Below, in pieces: positions 24,589 to 57,858 of a stretch of DNA of 64,000 bases. The stretch's first letter is position 1. Each line of letters begins with the position of its first letter. Below the pieces are notes generated by a model. That model did no database searches, had not been told where the DNA came from, and saw only the letters and a list, made by a program, of their open reading frames with translations. Made by a program: the position numbers and the translations under genes. Source of the stretch: an uncultured Trueperaceae bacterium (GTDB lineage: Bacteria; Deinococcota; Deinococci; Deinococcales; Trueperaceae); the NCBI GenBank assembly GCA_913057685.1, contig CAJXOA010000008.1:1-64000 (forward strand), read 5' to 3'.

Positions 24589-25971
24589 CTACTCGCCCAG
24601 CGTCTCCTTGAACTCCGACACCAGCTCCCCCACCATCGCCTTGCCGTCGCCGAACAGCATGCGGGTGTTGGGCTTGAAGAACAACGGGTTCTGCACGCCG
24701 GAGAAGCCCGGGTTCATCGAGCGCTTGAGGACGAACGTCGTGCGGGCTTCGTCGACGTTGATGATCGGCATGCCGTACAGCGGGCTGGAGGGATCCTCGC
24801 GCGCCGCGGGGTTCACGACGTCGTTCGCCCCGATGACGATCGCGACGTCGACGGTGTCCATCGTCGGGTTGACGTCGCCCGGCTCCACCAGCTGCTCGTA
24901 CGGCACGTTCGCTTCGGCCAACAGCACGTTCATGTGGCCCGGCATCCGGCCGGCGACGGGGTGGATGGCGTAGCGCACCTCCGCGCCGTTCTTCTCCAGC
25001 AACTCCGCCAACTCCCGCACGACGTGCTGCGCCTGCGCGACCGCCATGCCGTACCCCGGCACGACGACGACGTTCGAGGCCGCCTCGAGGATGTAGTACG
25101 CGTCCTCGGGGGTGATCGGCTTGACCTCCCCCTCGATCTCCGCGGTCGACGCCGCCGGCGCCCCGCCGAACCCGCCGAACAGCACGTTCGTGAGGCTGCG
25201 GTTCATCGCCTTCGACATGATGTTCGTCAGGATGAAGCCGGACGCCCCGACGAGCGACCCCGCGACCACGAGGGCGCTGTTGCCCAGCACGAAGCCCGCC
25301 ATCGAGGCGGCAAGGCCGGAGTAGGCGTTGAGGAGGCTGACGACGATCGGCATGTCCGCCCCGCCGATCGGCAGCACCAGCAACAGCCCCACGACGAGCG
25401 CCGCGACCGCCGTGGCGAGCAGGACGGCGCCCGCCGCCCCCCCGTCCGGCGCGACGACGAACCACGCCGCCCCCGCCAGGGTCGCGAGCGCGACGGCGGA
25501 GATGACGACCTGCTGGCCGGGCACCCGCACCGGGCGGCCGGGCATCGTCTCCGACAGCTTGCCCCAGGCGATCAGGCTGCCCGACGCGGCGACGGCGCCC
25601 ACCACCAACGCCGCGGCGATCGCCGCGGCGGTGCCGACGCCGGTCTCGGGGCGTTGGATCCACTCCGCCGCCGCGACCCCCATGGACGCGAGGCCCCCCG
25701 AGCCGTTGAACAGCGCCACCATCTCCGGCATCGCCGTCATCTTCACGAGGCGCGCCGCGAGGATGCCGATCGTCGCACCGACCCCGAGGCCGACGGCGAC
25801 CCAGAGCGGGTCGATGCCGCCCGCGAGCAGCGTCGCGACGACCGCGACCAACATCCCGAGCGCCGACAGCGCGTTCCCCCGGCGGGCGGTGTCCGCCCGC
25901 CCGAGCAGCTTCAGGCCCAGGATGAACGCCACCGCCGCGGCGATGTAGGCGAGGTCCAGTCCGCCCGCCAC
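24589..25971 (-). CDS. pntB: NAD(P) transhydrogenase subunit beta
   Basis: Proton-translocating transhydrogenase subunit with the membrane channel (about nine helices, residues 5-270) and the NADP-binding domain III (about 285-460). Domain III shows VVVPGYGMAVAQAQH, GANDVVNPAA, and KRSMNPGFSGVQNPLF near the C-terminus. It makes NADPH from NADH using the proton gradient. The GTG start lies just upstream-side of pntA2's stop with a short gap of three bases. Third gene of a split pntA1-pntA2-pntB operon. Confidence 0.96.
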   Translation of the reverse strand: MAGGLDLAYIAAAVAFILGLKLLGRADTARRGNALSALGMLVAVVATLLAGGIDPLWVAVGLGVGATIGILAARLVKMTAMPEMVALFNGSGGLASMGVAAAEWIQRPETGVGTAAAIAAALVVGAVAASGSLIAWGKLSETMPGRPVRVPGQQVVISAVALATLAGAAWFVVAPDGGAAGAVLLATAVAALVVGLLLVLPIGGADMPIVVSLLNAYSGLAASMAGFVLGNSALVVAGSLVGASGFILTNIMSKAMNRSLTNVLFGGFGGAPAASTAEIEGEVKPITPEDAYYILEAASNVVVVPGYGMAVAQAQHVVRELAELLEKNGAEVRYAIHPVAGRMPGHMNVLLAEANVPYEQLVEPGDVNPTMDTVDVAIVIGANDVVNPAAREDPSSPLYGMPIINVDEARTTFVLKRSMNPGFSGVQNPLFFKPNTRMLFGDGKAMVGELVSEFKETLGE

Positions 25972-43815: not shown

Positions 43816-45270
43816 TCAGGGCAGGCGGGAGAGCCAGCGCGCCGCGAGCGGCGCGAGCGGGTTGCGGTCGGCGGCCAGCAGGTCGACGTGCGTCAAGCCC
43901 TCGAGGATCGTGAGGGTCACCGGCCACCCCTCGCGTTGCGCCAGGTACCCGGCGAACGCCTCGCGGTCGCGGAGGAGCCCCCGGTCGGACCCGACGACGA
44001 GGGTGGGGAGCCCCACGTCCGCCTGCGGGCGGTAGCCGGGCGCCCCCACGAGGTCGGGCGGGAGGGCGACCAGGTCGAGGAGGAGGGCGGAGGGCAGGTA
44101 CCACTCCGCGGCGTCGGCGTCGGGGTGCAGCCAGGTCTTCGCCTGCTCCGCGAGGTCGCTACGCTCGAGCGCGGGATCGCCCGCCGTCCAGCCGACCCGC
44201 GCCGCGCCGGGGGCGACCCCGACGACGCTCGCCGCGCGACTCGCGAGCCCCCCACCGCCGAACAGGAACGCCGTCAGGTTCCCGTCGAGGTCGGCGTCGG
44301 TCGCCTCCCCGATCGAGGCGTAGGAGGCCTGGAACGGTTGGTACTGATCGTCGTTCGCGAGGCCGTAGAAGGCCTCGTTGCTGACCGGGAAGGGGGCGAC
44401 GATGGCGGGGGCGGTGGCGTCCGGCGCGCGGTCGGCGAGGACGGCGGAGGCGAAGCGGCGGGCGGCGACCCGCCCGTCGGGACCGAACGGAAGCCACGGC
44501 GGGACGTCGCCCGCCGCGAGCGCCGCGCGGTCGGGCAGCCCGACCGACACCCCGAACACCCGCACGCCGTCCTCGAGGCCGAACGCGCCGGTCCGGCCCG
44601 GCGCGCCGTCGACGAGGACGAGGGCGTCGACCGGGGCGGCGTCCTCCCACGAAGCGTACGTCGCGGCGAGGCTCGCCCCGAGCGAGTGCCCGAGCAGCAC
44701 CACCCGGTCCGCCTCCGCGCGGGCGGCCCGCACGACGGCGGCGAGGTCGCCGTGGTGCACGTCGAGCCCCCAGTCGGCGACGAAGCGGTGCGCGTCGGGG
44801 TCGGGGGCGCGGTACCCGAGGGCGTCGTCCGCGCCGGGGAGGAAGGTTTCCGCGACGTCGGCCAGCGGGGCGCCGTCCAACGCCCGGCGGCGGGCGTCCG
44901 CGTCCTCGAGGCGGTTGCCGCGCCGGTCGACCGCCCACACCGCGACGCCGGGCGCGTGCGCGACGAGGCGGCGGGCGAGGGGCGCGAACTGGCCGGCGCC
45001 CCCGAACAGGCCGGGGACGGCGATCACGACGGTATCGATCGGCTCGTCGAGCGCCCACCGGAGGGTGGTTTGCGCGTCGAACCGGTCGGGGGTCGCGGGC
45101 AGGTCCACGCCGGGGACCTCGACCGACGCGACCGGCACGGCGGCGGGATCGACGCGCGGGGCGGCCACCGGCTCGGGGGCGGGAGCGCGGACGTCGGGGA
45201 GGGGCACGCAGCCCGCGAGGAGGGCGAGGGCGGCAAGGGGGACGGCGAGGGCGGCGGTGGGCCGGGGCAT
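43816..45270 (-). CDS. alpha/beta-hydrolase lipoprotein
   Basis: A 484-residue exported lipoprotein with lipobox LLAGC (Cys21) and an alpha/beta-hydrolase core. The nucleophile elbow is LLGHSLGAS, a candidate acid is in VVGSDRG and the His in EGLTHVD near the C-terminus. Length and a large cap region (about 250-400) resemble periplasmic esterases. Substrate unknown. The ATG follows TACCCT by six bases. It is divergent from the repeat surface protein across 267 bases. Confidence 0.75.
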   Translation of the reverse strand: MPRPTAALAVPLAALALLAGCVPLPDVRAPAPEPVAAPRVDPAAVPVASVEVPGVDLPATPDRFDAQTTLRWALDEPIDTVVIAVPGLFGGAGQFAPLARRLVAHAPGVAVWAVDRRGNRLEDADARRRALDGAPLADVAETFLPGADDALGYRAPDPDAHRFVADWGLDVHHGDLAAVVRAARAEADRVVLLGHSLGASLAATYASWEDAAPVDALVLVDGAPGRTGAFGLEDGVRVFGVSVGLPDRAALAAGDVPPWLPFGPDGRVAARRFASAVLADRAPDATAPAIVAPFPVSNEAFYGLANDDQYQPFQASYASIGEATDADLDGNLTAFLFGGGGLASRAASVVGVAPGAARVGWTAGDPALERSDLAEQAKTWLHPDADAAEWYLPSALLLDLVALPPDLVGAPGYRPQADVGLPTLVVGSDRGLLRDREAFAGYLAQREGWPVTLTILEGLTHVDLLAADRNPLAPLAARWLSRLP

Positions 45271-52844: not shown

Positions 52845-53627
<783 letters not shown>

Positions 53628-53663: not shown

Positions 53664-54890
53664 TCAGCGTTCACCGACACCGAGTTCCTTCTCGAGTTGA
53701 CGACTGGCGATGGACATCCGGTAGGTGAAGAACCAGTACACGACCGCCATGAACAGCGAGATCTCGAGCAGGACGCCGCCAGGATACAGCAACGACTCCG
53801 GTTGGCTGGGGATGACCCGCCGCCCGATCTCGAAGAAGTCGAACAGGCCGACGATGAACACGAGCGACGTGTCCTTGAACAGGCCGATCGCCTGCCCCAC
53901 GATCGCGGGGATGACCGCGCGGAGCGCCTGCGGCAGCACGATCAGGCGGGTCGTCTGCCAACCCGAAAGGCCGAGGGCGCGGGCCGCTTCGCGCTGGCCG
54001 TTGGGGATCGACTGCAGGCCCCCGCGCACGTTCTCCGCCATGTAGGCGGACGCGAACAGCGTGACCGCCACCATCGCGCGCGTCAGGGCGGGGATCGAGT
54101 CGGGACTGACGTCGAGCAGGAGCGGCACCATGAGGCTGGCGATGAACAGCCAGGTGATCAGCGGCGCCCCGCGGATCAACTCGATGTAGCCGATGCTGAA
54201 GCCCTTGATGGCGGGCAGGCGACTCTGCCGACCGAGGGCGAGGAGGATCCCGAGGGGGAAGGCGACGGTGATCCCGACGCTGGCGAGCACCAGCGTCAGC
54301 AGGAAACCGCCCCACTCGACGGTGCGCACGACCTCCATCGGGCCGTCCCCCCCGAGGCCGTAGACGAGGACGACGGCGGCGGGGAGGCCGACCGCCCACG
54401 CCCACGTCTGGATGCGGACGAGGCCGGGCGCGAGGCGGCCGGCGGCGTAGCCACCGAGCGCCAGGAGGCTGGCGGCGACCCACGCGACGCGGACCGACTC
54501 CCAGAAGGGGATCGCGATGGCGGTGAGGGCGAGCGCGAGGCCGGTGAACCACCAGTACACCCCCCCGATGATGCGGCCCTTGCCGGCGTGGCGGGCGAGG
54601 CCGGCGCTGAGGCCGGTGAGCATCAACAGGGTGCCGGCGGCGAGGACCGGGCGCCACAGCAGGTCGGCGGGGTAGCGGTAGACCGCGAGGAGTTTGAGGT
54701 TGTTCCACAACGGTTGCCACGACGCGCCGCCGGTCACCCAGCCGAGGAGGTTCCAGGCGGCGAGGAGCACGAGGGTCCCGACGACGACGGAGGTGACGCC
54801 GTTGACGGGGCCGGAGAAGAGGTTGCGGCGCGCCCACGCGACGAGGCCGCGTTCGCCGGGGGGTGGGGGCCGGGAGGGGATCATCTGCAT
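53664..54890 (-). CDS. aapM: polar amino-acid ABC transporter permease (AapM-like)
   Basis: Inner-membrane permease, 408 residues, close to the size of AapM. About eight helices; the N-terminal half (1-200) is the extra AapM/BztC region and the C-terminal half has the permease EAA loop REAARALGLSGWQTTRLIVLPQALR. IELIRGAPLITWLF is the conserved PAAT segment. The start is one base after the aapQ stop, so the two permeases are coupled. Confidence 0.9.
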   Translation of the reverse strand: MQMIPSRPPPPGERGLVAWARRNLFSGPVNGVTSVVVGTLVLLAAWNLLGWVTGGASWQPLWNNLKLLAVYRYPADLLWRPVLAAGTLLMLTGLSAGLARHAGKGRIIGGVYWWFTGLALALTAIAIPFWESVRVAWVAASLLALGGYAAGRLAPGLVRIQTWAWAVGLPAAVVLVYGLGGDGPMEVVRTVEWGGFLLTLVLASVGITVAFPLGILLALGRQSRLPAIKGFSIGYIELIRGAPLITWLFIASLMVPLLLDVSPDSIPALTRAMVAVTLFASAYMAENVRGGLQSIPNGQREAARALGLSGWQTTRLIVLPQALRAVIPAIVGQAIGLFKDTSLVFIVGLFDFFEIGRRVIPSQPESLLYPGGVLLEISLFMAVVYWFFTYRMSIASRQLEKELGVGER

Positions 54891-54891
54891 C

Positions 54892-56700
54892 TCAGCGCTC
54901 CACGATCGCCATGCGGGCGTTGACGATGTTCAGGACGAGGGCGAAGAACCAGCTGATGACGAGGTAGGAGAGGATGATCATGATGATCACCGGGACGCTG
55001 GCGCCGGTCTGGTTGGCGACGATCGTGCTGATCGCGAAGATCTCCGCGTACGCCGCGAGGGGCGCGAGCGAGGAGTTCTTGGTGAGGTTGAGGAACTGGC
55101 TGATCATGGGGGGCAGGATGATGCGGACCGCCTGCGGGAAGATCACGAGGCCGAAGGTCTGCGCGCCGGACAGCCCGAGCGCCTTCGACGCTTCGGTTTG
55201 GCCCTTGGGGACGGCGAGGATGCCGGCGCGGACGATTTCGGCGATGAACGTCGCGGTGTAGATCACGAGCGCCAACAGCAACGCCAGGTAGCTGGCGGTG
55301 AAGCGGAAGCCGCCCTCGTAGTTCGAGACCGGCACGGTCGGGGTGCTGTAGACGAGGGCGCCGGAGGGGCGGATCTCGACGGTCGCGTCGAGGGTGGGTT
55401 CGTCGTCGTCGCCGGGCGTCCCGAACAGGCCGACCGGACCCGACGCGCCGACGGAGCCGACGCCGCTGCCGCCGGTGGCGTCCTCCGCCTCGAGCGAGGC
55501 GACGGGGTCGAACCCGGGGATGCGGATGAGGCCGTCGCGGTCGGACACCAGGTCGCGGCGGAAGCCCTCGACGACCAGGGCGGTCTGGACGTTGCGGAAC
55601 CCCTCGCCGTTCGCGTCGACCTCCTCGCCCGCCTGCCACGCCCCGTCGCCGTTGCGGTCCTCGTAGACGAGGGCGGAGATCGGTTTCTCGACCCAGTGCA
55701 GGTCGAAGCGTTCCGCCTGGTCCTCGTCGAGGAGGCGGGCGTCGACCGCGTCGTACTCGCCGTCCTCGAGGACGGCGTAGCGCACGACGCTGGGCTTGAC
55801 GGTGCGTTGCTCGACGAGGTTCTGGCTGCGGGCGGTGAGGGCGCCCTCGGCGACGCGGACGGTGACGGGGACGAAGCCGTAGCGGGCCTCGTCGCGGTCG
55901 TGCTCGCCGTCGCCGTCGGCGTCGAGGAACGACAGTCCGCGGCCGCGGTCGGCGGTGAACTCGATCGCGAGGTCGGCCGGCCGGTCGTCGCCGGCGGAGG
56001 CGACGACGTAGCCCACGCCGGTGACGAGCACGAAGGCGGCGAGGGTGGCGGGCCAGGCGCGCCCGGGGCGTTCGCTGGCGCGAATGGCGCGGCGGCGGAG
56101 CCGGTGGACGACCGCCGCGAGGACGACGGCGGCGAGGATCCAGGGAAGCCACTGCTGGAAGGCGAACCCGGGGTAGAGGAACGGGAAGGCGAGGCCCTTG
56201 TTGGAGAAGTAGATGCCGCCGGGCAGGCGGATCGGGGCGCTGATGGTGGGGGGCAGCGTCGCGATGGCGGCGGTGTACCAGAAGATGATCTGCACCGCGA
56301 GCGGCGTGTTGCGCAGCAGCTCGACGTACGCGCCGGCGATCTGCCGCAGCAACCAGTTGCCGCTGAGCCGCGAGACGCCGACGGCGACGCCGAGGAGGGT
56401 GGCGAGAACGACGCCGATCAGCGCGATCTTGAGGGTGTTGAGGAAGCCGATGACGAGCGCCCGCCAGTAGGGGTCGTCGGCGGTGTAGGGGATCGGGCGT
56501 TCGCTGATGGGGATACCGGCGCGGGCGTCGAGCCAACCGAAGTTGGCGGGCAGGTCCGAGCGGGCCAACGCCGACGTGACGTTCGTCCACAGGATCGCGA
56601 GCGCGGCGAGGAGGACCGCGACGAAGACGACCTGCGCGACGATGCCGAGCGTCTTGACGTTGCGCCAAACGGGGATGGGGCGCTGCGGGTCAGTCGGCAC
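54892..56700 (-). CDS. aapQ: polar amino-acid ABC transporter permease (AapQ-like) with EF-hand-bearing insert
   Basis: Permease partner of AapM, but 602 residues instead of about 400. Helices lie at about 20-40, 83-110, 130-150, 185-202, 217-236, then 468-495 and 570-595, with the PAAT segment VELLRNTPLAVQIIFW and the EAA loop EASKALGLSGAQTFGLVIFPQAVR (Glu-Ala-Ala-like then Gly). Between helices, residues about 238-465 form an extra domain with two perfect EF-hand loops: Asp260, Asp262, Asp264, Gly265, Glu271 and Asp348, Asn350, Asp352, Gly353, Glu359, and a third Asp-rich site near 387. The style resembles SdrD-B/Cna-B calcium domains. The start is a GTG. Confidence 0.85.
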   Translation of the reverse strand: MPTDPQRPIPVWRNVKTLGIVAQVVFVAVLLAALAILWTNVTSALARSDLPANFGWLDARAGIPISERPIPYTADDPYWRALVIGFLNTLKIALIGVVLATLLGVAVGVSRLSGNWLLRQIAGAYVELLRNTPLAVQIIFWYTAAIATLPPTISAPIRLPGGIYFSNKGLAFPFLYPGFAFQQWLPWILAAVVLAAVVHRLRRRAIRASERPGRAWPATLAAFVLVTGVGYVVASAGDDRPADLAIEFTADRGRGLSFLDADGDGEHDRDEARYGFVPVTVRVAEGALTARSQNLVEQRTVKPSVVRYAVLEDGEYDAVDARLLDEDQAERFDLHWVEKPISALVYEDRNGDGAWQAGEEVDANGEGFRNVQTALVVEGFRRDLVSDRDGLIRIPGFDPVASLEAEDATGGSGVGSVGASGPVGLFGTPGDDDEPTLDATVEIRPSGALVYSTPTVPVSNYEGGFRFTASYLALLLALVIYTATFIAEIVRAGILAVPKGQTEASKALGLSGAQTFGLVIFPQAVRIILPPMISQFLNLTKNSSLAPLAAYAEIFAISTIVANQTGASVPVIIMIILSYLVISWFFALVLNIVNARMAIVER

Positions 56701-56800
56701 GGGGGCCTCGCGGGGGGCGCGGCGCGGGAGAGGGGGGCGCCGGGGTGGACGGGGTCGTTCGCAAGATAGGGGTCACGCGGTGGGGCGCGGGGCAAGGGGG

Positions 56801-56841: not shown

Positions 56842-57858
56842 TCAGCGGAAGGGCGGGGCGTACATCAGGCCGCCGTCGGTGTACAGCGCGTTCAGGCCCC
56901 GGTCGAGGTTGAACTGGCTGTCGGCACCGAGGTGGCGGTCGAAGATCTCGCCGTAGTTGCCGACCTGCTGGATCATGTTGATCATCGCGTCGCTCTCGAG
57001 GCCGAGCTGCTGCAGCGCTTCGCCGTCGACGCCGAGGAAGCGGCGGACGACCGGCGCTTCGGCGTTGGCGGCGACCTCGAGGACGTTGTCGCTGGTGATG
57101 CCGTACTCCTCGGCGAAGATCGTCCCGAAGGTCACCCACTTGACGACGTCGAACCAGGTGTCGTCGCCGTGCAGGACGGCCGGCCCGAGCGGCTCCTTGG
57201 AGATCGTCTGCGGGAGGATGACGTGCTCGTCCGGGTTCTGCAGGAGGCTGGAGCGGCTGACGAGGCCGGACTTGTCGGTCGTCACCGAGTCGCACTGGCC
57301 CGCTTCGTAGGCGCCGAACGTCTGGTCGGCGGACTCGAAGGTGAGGGGCGTGAACTCGATGTCGAGGGCGGCCATGACGTCGGCGAGGTTCAGCTCCGTC
57401 GTGGTGCCCGACTGCACGCAGATGCTGGTGCCCTCGAAGTCGGCGAGCTCGGTGATGCCCGACGCCTCGCGGACGATGAAGCCCTGGCCGTCGTAGAAGG
57501 TGGTCGGGGCGAAGTTCGCGCCGACCTCGCTGTCGCGGCTGGAGGTCCAGGTGGTGTTGCGGATCAGCACGTCGATCTCGCCGGTCTGCAGCGCGGTGAA
57601 GCGCTCGGCGGCGTTGAGGCCGCGGTACTCGACGGCGTCGGCGTCCCCGAGGACGGCGGCGGCGATGGCGCGGCAGAAGTCGACGTCGAACCCGGTGAAG
57701 TTGCCGTCGCTGTCGATCGCGCCGAAGCCGGGCAGCTGCGCGTTGGCGCCGCAGACGAGGGTGCCGCGATCCTGGATCTCGTCGAGCAGGCTGTCCTGCG
57801 CGTTCGCGAGACCAATCACGACGGAGAGGGCGACGACGAGGGTCACGAGCTTGCGCAT
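56842..57858 (-). CDS. aapJ: polar amino-acid ABC transporter substrate-binding protein (AapJ-like)
   Basis: Exported solute-binding protein, 338 residues. Signal peptide about 1-21 (VTLVVALSVVIGLANAQ), without a lipobox Cys at the cleavage site. The SBP_bac_3 fold shows RGTLVCGANAQLPGFG, GFDVDFCRAIAAAVLGD, DVLIRNTTWTSSRDS and NYGEIFDRHLG, the AapJ/BztA pattern for L-amino acids. Two Cys pairs may bond. ATG after AAAAGGAG. Its promoter is TTTACA-17-TAGACT with a palindrome just downstream. Confidence 0.92.
   Translation of the reverse strand: MRKLVTLVVALSVVIGLANAQDSLLDEIQDRGTLVCGANAQLPGFGAIDSDGNFTGFDVDFCRAIAAAVLGDADAVEYRGLNAAERFTALQTGEIDVLIRNTTWTSSRDSEVGANFAPTTFYDGQGFIVREASGITELADFEGTSICVQSGTTTELNLADVMAALDIEFTPLTFESADQTFGAYEAGQCDSVTTDKSGLVSRSSLLQNPDEHVILPQTISKEPLGPAVLHGDDTWFDVVKWVTFGTIFAEEYGITSDNVLEVAANAEAPVVRRFLGVDGEALQQLGLESDAMINMIQQVGNYGEIFDRHLGADSQFNLDRGLNALYTDGGLMYAPPFR

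Follow-up and report, generated by a model that had tools for sequence, protein, structure and literature searches.

In the Aap-type amino-acid importer encoded here, the permease AapQ carries a large insert that is predicted to lie outside the membrane, to fold as a beta-rich domain and to bind calcium through an EF-hand-like loop. It is found in all 27 AapQ orthologues identified in this Deinococcota family (which we take to be the Trueperaceae), while a clade of Chloroflexota holds material from a binding protein at the corresponding position of its AapQ. A conserved, apparently calcium-binding insert and an unrelated, binding-protein-derived insert at the same place form a natural comparison for studying how a permease recruits its binding protein.

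The gene lies in an operon with the order AapJ, AapQ, AapM, AapP, which is kept in relatives wherever the contigs show it. The following features were annotated in the window, the whole 64-kb stretch of DNA that was analysed.

56842..57858, minus strand: AapJ-like substrate-binding protein gene, the partner of the transporter (Pfam and NCBIfam; order kept in relatives)
54892..56700, minus strand: AapQ-like permease gene, 602 aa (open reading frame; Pfam and NCBIfam matches)
54910..55305, minus strand: core membrane helices past the insert, AapQ residues 466-597, including the EAA coupling loop (Pfam, NCBIfam and fold search)
53664..54890, minus strand: AapM-like permease gene of normal length, without the insert (Pfam and NCBIfam; gene order of relatives)
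52845..53627, minus strand: AapP-like ATPase gene (Pfam and NCBIfam; gene order of relatives)

The BPD_transp_1 model (PF00528) matches AapQ with 43 bits against a cut-off of 26.4, and the model of the HEQRo 3-TM region (TIGR01726) with 51.9 bits against a cut-off of 42.2. On its sequence, AapQ can be placed among the polar amino-acid importer permeases of the AapQ/HEQRo type, and the operon has the AapQ, AapM, ATPase and binding-protein genes of an AapJQMP-type importer. The core permease, the gene order and the partners are those of other AapQ proteins (TIGR01726, PF00528), and the AapQ proteins of Chloroflexota and Pseudomonadota share 35-55% identity with this one outside the insert. The permease is, however, matched in two separated pieces, residues 80-144 and 469-602, with a gap in the match from about residue 149 to 469. 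The first-pass annotation had called the protein about 200 residues too long and was right, as relatives that lack the 200-residue insert have about 370-470 aa. A 691-aa open frame runs antisense to aapQ and part of aapM (window positions 54694-56769, plus strand); long antisense frames are common in G+C-rich DNA.

Alignments with AapQ relatives of 390-410 residues and an AlphaFold2 model agree with the earlier proposal of an extra domain between membrane helices at residues 238-464 or thereabouts. Its parts are as follows.

55309..55989, minus strand: whole insert, residues 238-464, predicted external loop between membrane helices 5 and 6 (alignments and model; topology from helix count and charge)
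55711..55989, minus strand: module 1 of the insert, residues 238-330 (strands, pLDDT about 94; profile match to module 2)
55888..55923, minus strand: EF-hand-like loop 1, residues 260-271, DADGDGEHDRDE (alignment, motif shuffles and tree)
55507..55710, minus strand: module 2 of the insert, residues 331-398 (model; profile match to module 1)
55624..55659, minus strand: EF-hand-like loop 2, residues 348-359, DRNGDGAWQAGE (alignment and motif shuffles)
55387..55506, minus strand: variable low-confidence linker, residues 399-438 (alignments and model)

The model places helices at residues 15-48, 78-111, 116-146, 181-209 and 216-235, then at 469-495, 512-549 and 568-600, and a positive stretch with six K/R (residues 202-215) stands ahead of helix 5. 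The insert is assigned to the outer face because the helix count, these K/R residues and the cytoplasmic EAA loop after residue 495 agree; family knowledge and the positive-inside rule thus make an external position probable, rather than the cytoplasmic one that the first-pass annotation had kept in view. Nor is the domain predicted to be disordered, the other doubt raised at that stage. Modelled in isolation from 27 sequences, residues 238-398 have a mean pLDDT of 94.9 and a pTM of 0.82 and are nearly all beta. In the full-length model (mean pLDDT 85.2) the folded insert scores mostly 84-92, and linker residues 410-431 fall below 50. The linker is mostly absent in three early-branching relatives.

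Each EF-hand-like loop comes after a strand and before a 14-residue strand in the model. A profile comparison of module 1 with module 2 gives a probability of 94.3% and an E-value of 1e-7 over 33 columns, with a score largely driven by the shared loop motif. The match suggests that a strand-plus-loop unit was duplicated within the domain.

How widely is the insert distributed? Its profile matched 27 of the 39 family genomes, spread over 14 genera, with exactly one match in each. These 27 are the genomes with an AapQ orthologue at an E-value of up to 1e-25, and the insert was found in 27/27 of the family's orthologues, so the initial worry that all relatives might lack it does not hold. The insert is absent elsewhere in the Deinococcota, and in the other families of the same order AapQ frames reach up to 470 aa with no match across the insert. 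In Pseudomonadota, AapQ occurs in 58 of 200 genomes with frames of 381-497 aa and no long frame; in Chloroflexota it occurs in 69 of 301 genomes, with two long frames. A search with the insert profile itself gave no match in 400 genomes of Chloroflexota or in six further genomes.

In an AapQ tree from which the insert columns were left out, the 26 insert-bearing rows are all separated from the rest by a branch with an SH-aLRT of 100, which fits a single gain. These sequence data suggest that the family's ancestor acquired the insert in one event. Where it could be computed between close pairs, dN/dS of modules 1 and 2 is 0.05-0.25 (one module-1 value was undefined, dS being saturated), so purifying selection acts on the domain. 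In most of the pairs compared, the insert nevertheless changes more quickly than the C-terminal membrane part.

G011, a genome of the family, also encodes another AapQ, of 416 aa, that lacks the insert, stands in its own operon and groups with other Deinococcota in the tree. Its two Aap systems, whose AapQ proteins have and lack the insert, lie at loci L050 (G011:C20:130500-136500) and L024. As both forms of AapQ are present in this genome, the question of recruitment is directly testable there.

The Chloroflexota provide the second insert. The AapQ of genome G260 is 560 aa long; about 140 of its residues are additional and lie in the loop that holds the Deinococcota insert.

L055:1801-3480, plus strand, with L059-L063: AapQ of the G260 clade with the AapJ-lobe insert

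These residues match AapJ proteins in BLAST at about 1e-6. A profile of six inspected insert sequences aligns to residues 122-217 of the AapJ profile with a probability of 97.8% and an E-value of about 1e-12 (hhalign). The insert is thus a copied lobe of AapJ. In about 30 relatives of G260, AapQ frames of 519-578 aa can be aligned along the G260 protein. This insert shares with the beta domain of the Deinococcota the loop, the permease and the external side, but its sequence is unrelated and has no EF-hand loops. An AapJ lobe at the same site in a separate clade indicates that external modules can be accommodated there, including one that stems from a binding protein.

Some further permeases should be mentioned alongside. 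L060 and L061 (G718 and G488) and a few other Chloroflexota AapQ copies have one in-frame stop each, from sequencing error or decay. A Chloroflexota AapQ at L056 (G356:C115), with a 578-aa frame, has additional hydrophobic stretches on the N-terminal side of the insert position. Another amino-acid permease of the source genome (L051, G000:C10), of about 400 aa, carries an insert of ~88 aa after an early membrane helix that is conserved in L032 and L033 at 35-40% identity; the idea that it is a binding-protein lobe was tested and found unsupported.

By analogy with MalF P2, we propose that the Deinococcota insert is a calcium-stabilised external platform, gained once, that holds or steers AapJ; we give this reading about an even chance of being right. 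An extracytoplasmic beta-rich domain would occupy the loop immediately ahead of the core helix that runs into the EAA coupling loop, and would contain a duplicated strand-plus-EF-loop unit. Loop 2 would most likely hold calcium permanently and so stiffen the fold, with loop 1 optional, and the flexible linker would join the domain to the next helix. Such a fixed platform would most likely hold or steer AapJ over the entrance, as MalF P2 does with its own binding protein. The contact between the insert and AapJ that this requires is presumed on the same analogy, and two independent insertions in one loop, one of them of binding-protein material, favour a role in binding-protein handling, though circumstantially. 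More tentatively, and with somewhat less than even confidence, we suggest that the AapQ loop ahead of the EAA helix has served repeatedly as a docking port. Modules unrelated to one another, a calcium-locked beta domain here and a copied AapJ lobe in Chloroflexota, may have entered it on separate occasions so that the binding protein is captured or positioned, leaving the importer less dependent on the free diffusion of AapJ.

The domain could also be external and stabilised by calcium with no contact to AapJ, serving as an anchor or spacer in the envelope or as a stabiliser of the permease in hot, alkaline or saline habitats. Truepera, which we take to be a member of the insert-bearing family, is found in habitats that are alkaline, moderately saline and hot (PMC3072082). 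B-type domains serve as rigid spacers in other proteins (PMC6232131), and the membrane core varies less than the insert. That said, the insert adjoins the entrance loop and is present in one subunit only, and the arrival of a binding-protein lobe at the same site in Chloroflexota points to substrate delivery. We consider a role without AapJ contact rather unlikely, and prefer the platform that holds or steers AapJ.

Both EF-hand-like loops that the first-pass annotation had reported are present in the insert. Loop 2 keeps the pattern of D or N at positions 1, 3 and 5 and an acidic residue at position 12. Across the 27 relatives, position 1 is D in 27/27, position 3 is N or D in 27/27, position 5 is N or D in 26/27 (S once) and position 12 is E in 27/27, whereas positions 2, 7 and 10 vary freely. 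Over the insert, column identity averages 46-52%, against these invariant or nearly invariant ligand positions. When the residues of the insert were shuffled, at least one loop motif arose in 1.1% of the shuffles, and two together in 0.01% (1/10,000). Loop 1 is missing in 7/27 relatives, by two losses according to the tree. A third, Asp-rich site claimed at the outset is rejected because it is not conserved: DRDG at residues 387-390 does not stay acidic in relatives (DRNG, NRNG, DRTG, DNYG), and GDDDEP falls within the variable linker (residues 410-431, pLDDT <50). Across all open frames of the 64-kb window, the loop pattern occurs twice more, both times on the plus strand, at 24838-24873 in an 858-aa frame and at 45016-45051 in a 579-aa frame (DRDVDGVHRRVD and DGDHDGIDRLVE).

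Judged by their residues, the loops look like calcium-binding sites, with calcium the probable ion and occupancy of loop 2 probably permanent. Might external calcium instead switch transport through the insert, as was first suggested? Conserved EF-hand-like loops on the outside of a permease would suit a sensor or gate. The related B domain SdrG B1, however, has an apparent sub-nanomolar affinity for calcium, which sets its mechanical stability (PMC6232131), and a site of comparable affinity would be full at any natural external concentration; loop 1, moreover, was lost twice with the domain retained. This affinity and the dispensability of loop 1 make a sensor role less likely, and we regard it as improbable. 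That the loops bind no metal and are mere D/N-rich turns of the beta domain is very doubtful given the selective conservation of the loop 2 ligand positions, even though the Pfam EF-hand models match a single insert member, at an E-value of 7.5 only, and Foldseek returns no significant calcium-binding homologue. We therefore keep to a domain that is probably calcium-stabilised.

The resemblance of the insert to known domains is limited. Among Pfam families, SdrD_B (PF17210) matches the largest number of members (12/27 at E-values up to 1), but its best score of 21 bits (E-value 3.9e-4) lies below the curated cut-off of 29.7. What is alike in the B domains of SdrD and SdrG is a strand followed by a D-x-N-x-D-G-x5-E calcium loop; about half of the SdrD_B profile is covered by the insert, with no significant fold match. 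Because the scores fall below the cut-off, we speak of an SdrD_B-like loop and do not file the insert as an SdrD_B domain. Of the SdrD-B-like setting described in the first-pass annotation, then, a weak and suggestive sequence resemblance stands, and membership and fold do not. The further idea of two complete SdrD_B domains was dropped, as module 2, with about 60 residues, does not reach the length needed and no fold matches turned up. GEVED (PF20009) matches a short D-rich loop segment of module 2 in 8/27 members, with a best E-value of 2.4e-4; in the members shown this covers about 20-29 of the 78 profile positions and is below the curated cut-off.

Structure searches agree with this picture. 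Foldseek with the isolated domain found no match in the PDB at an E-value of 0.001 or below, the solved SdrD B structures included; the best, at 0.088, was an unrelated ubiquitin E1. Nothing significant was found among viral models, and matches to the full AapQ model were confined to the permease core. The insert profile gave chance matches only, mainly to protein A, when compared with PDB sequences.

The textbook case of an external insert in an ABC importer permease is MalF P2, and to our knowledge such inserted domains are rare. A search of mostly open-access literature returned no description of an ABC importer permease whose external domain binds calcium, nor of a conserved insert with EF-hand-like loops in an amino-acid permease, which is a weak negative. 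The first claim that such a domain is not described therefore holds for the calcium-type module and its position, but not, given the precedent of MalF P2, for the external insert itself. By the helix correspondence, MalF P2 is presumably not in the same loop as the AapQ insert, and we know of no EF-hand loops in it. MalF was absent among the Foldseek matches listed and from the profile matches of the insert, and the analogy that we draw is one of function, not of homology. What the two have in common is that a single permease subunit of an ABC importer carries a large, external, beta-rich insert. In the maltose importer MalFGK2, P2 comprises about 180 residues (91-271) and contacts the maltose-binding protein (PMC3150292). 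A further parallel is found in the GlnPQ permeases with fused substrate-binding domains, where binding-protein material is covalently joined to an amino-acid permease (PMC8025302).
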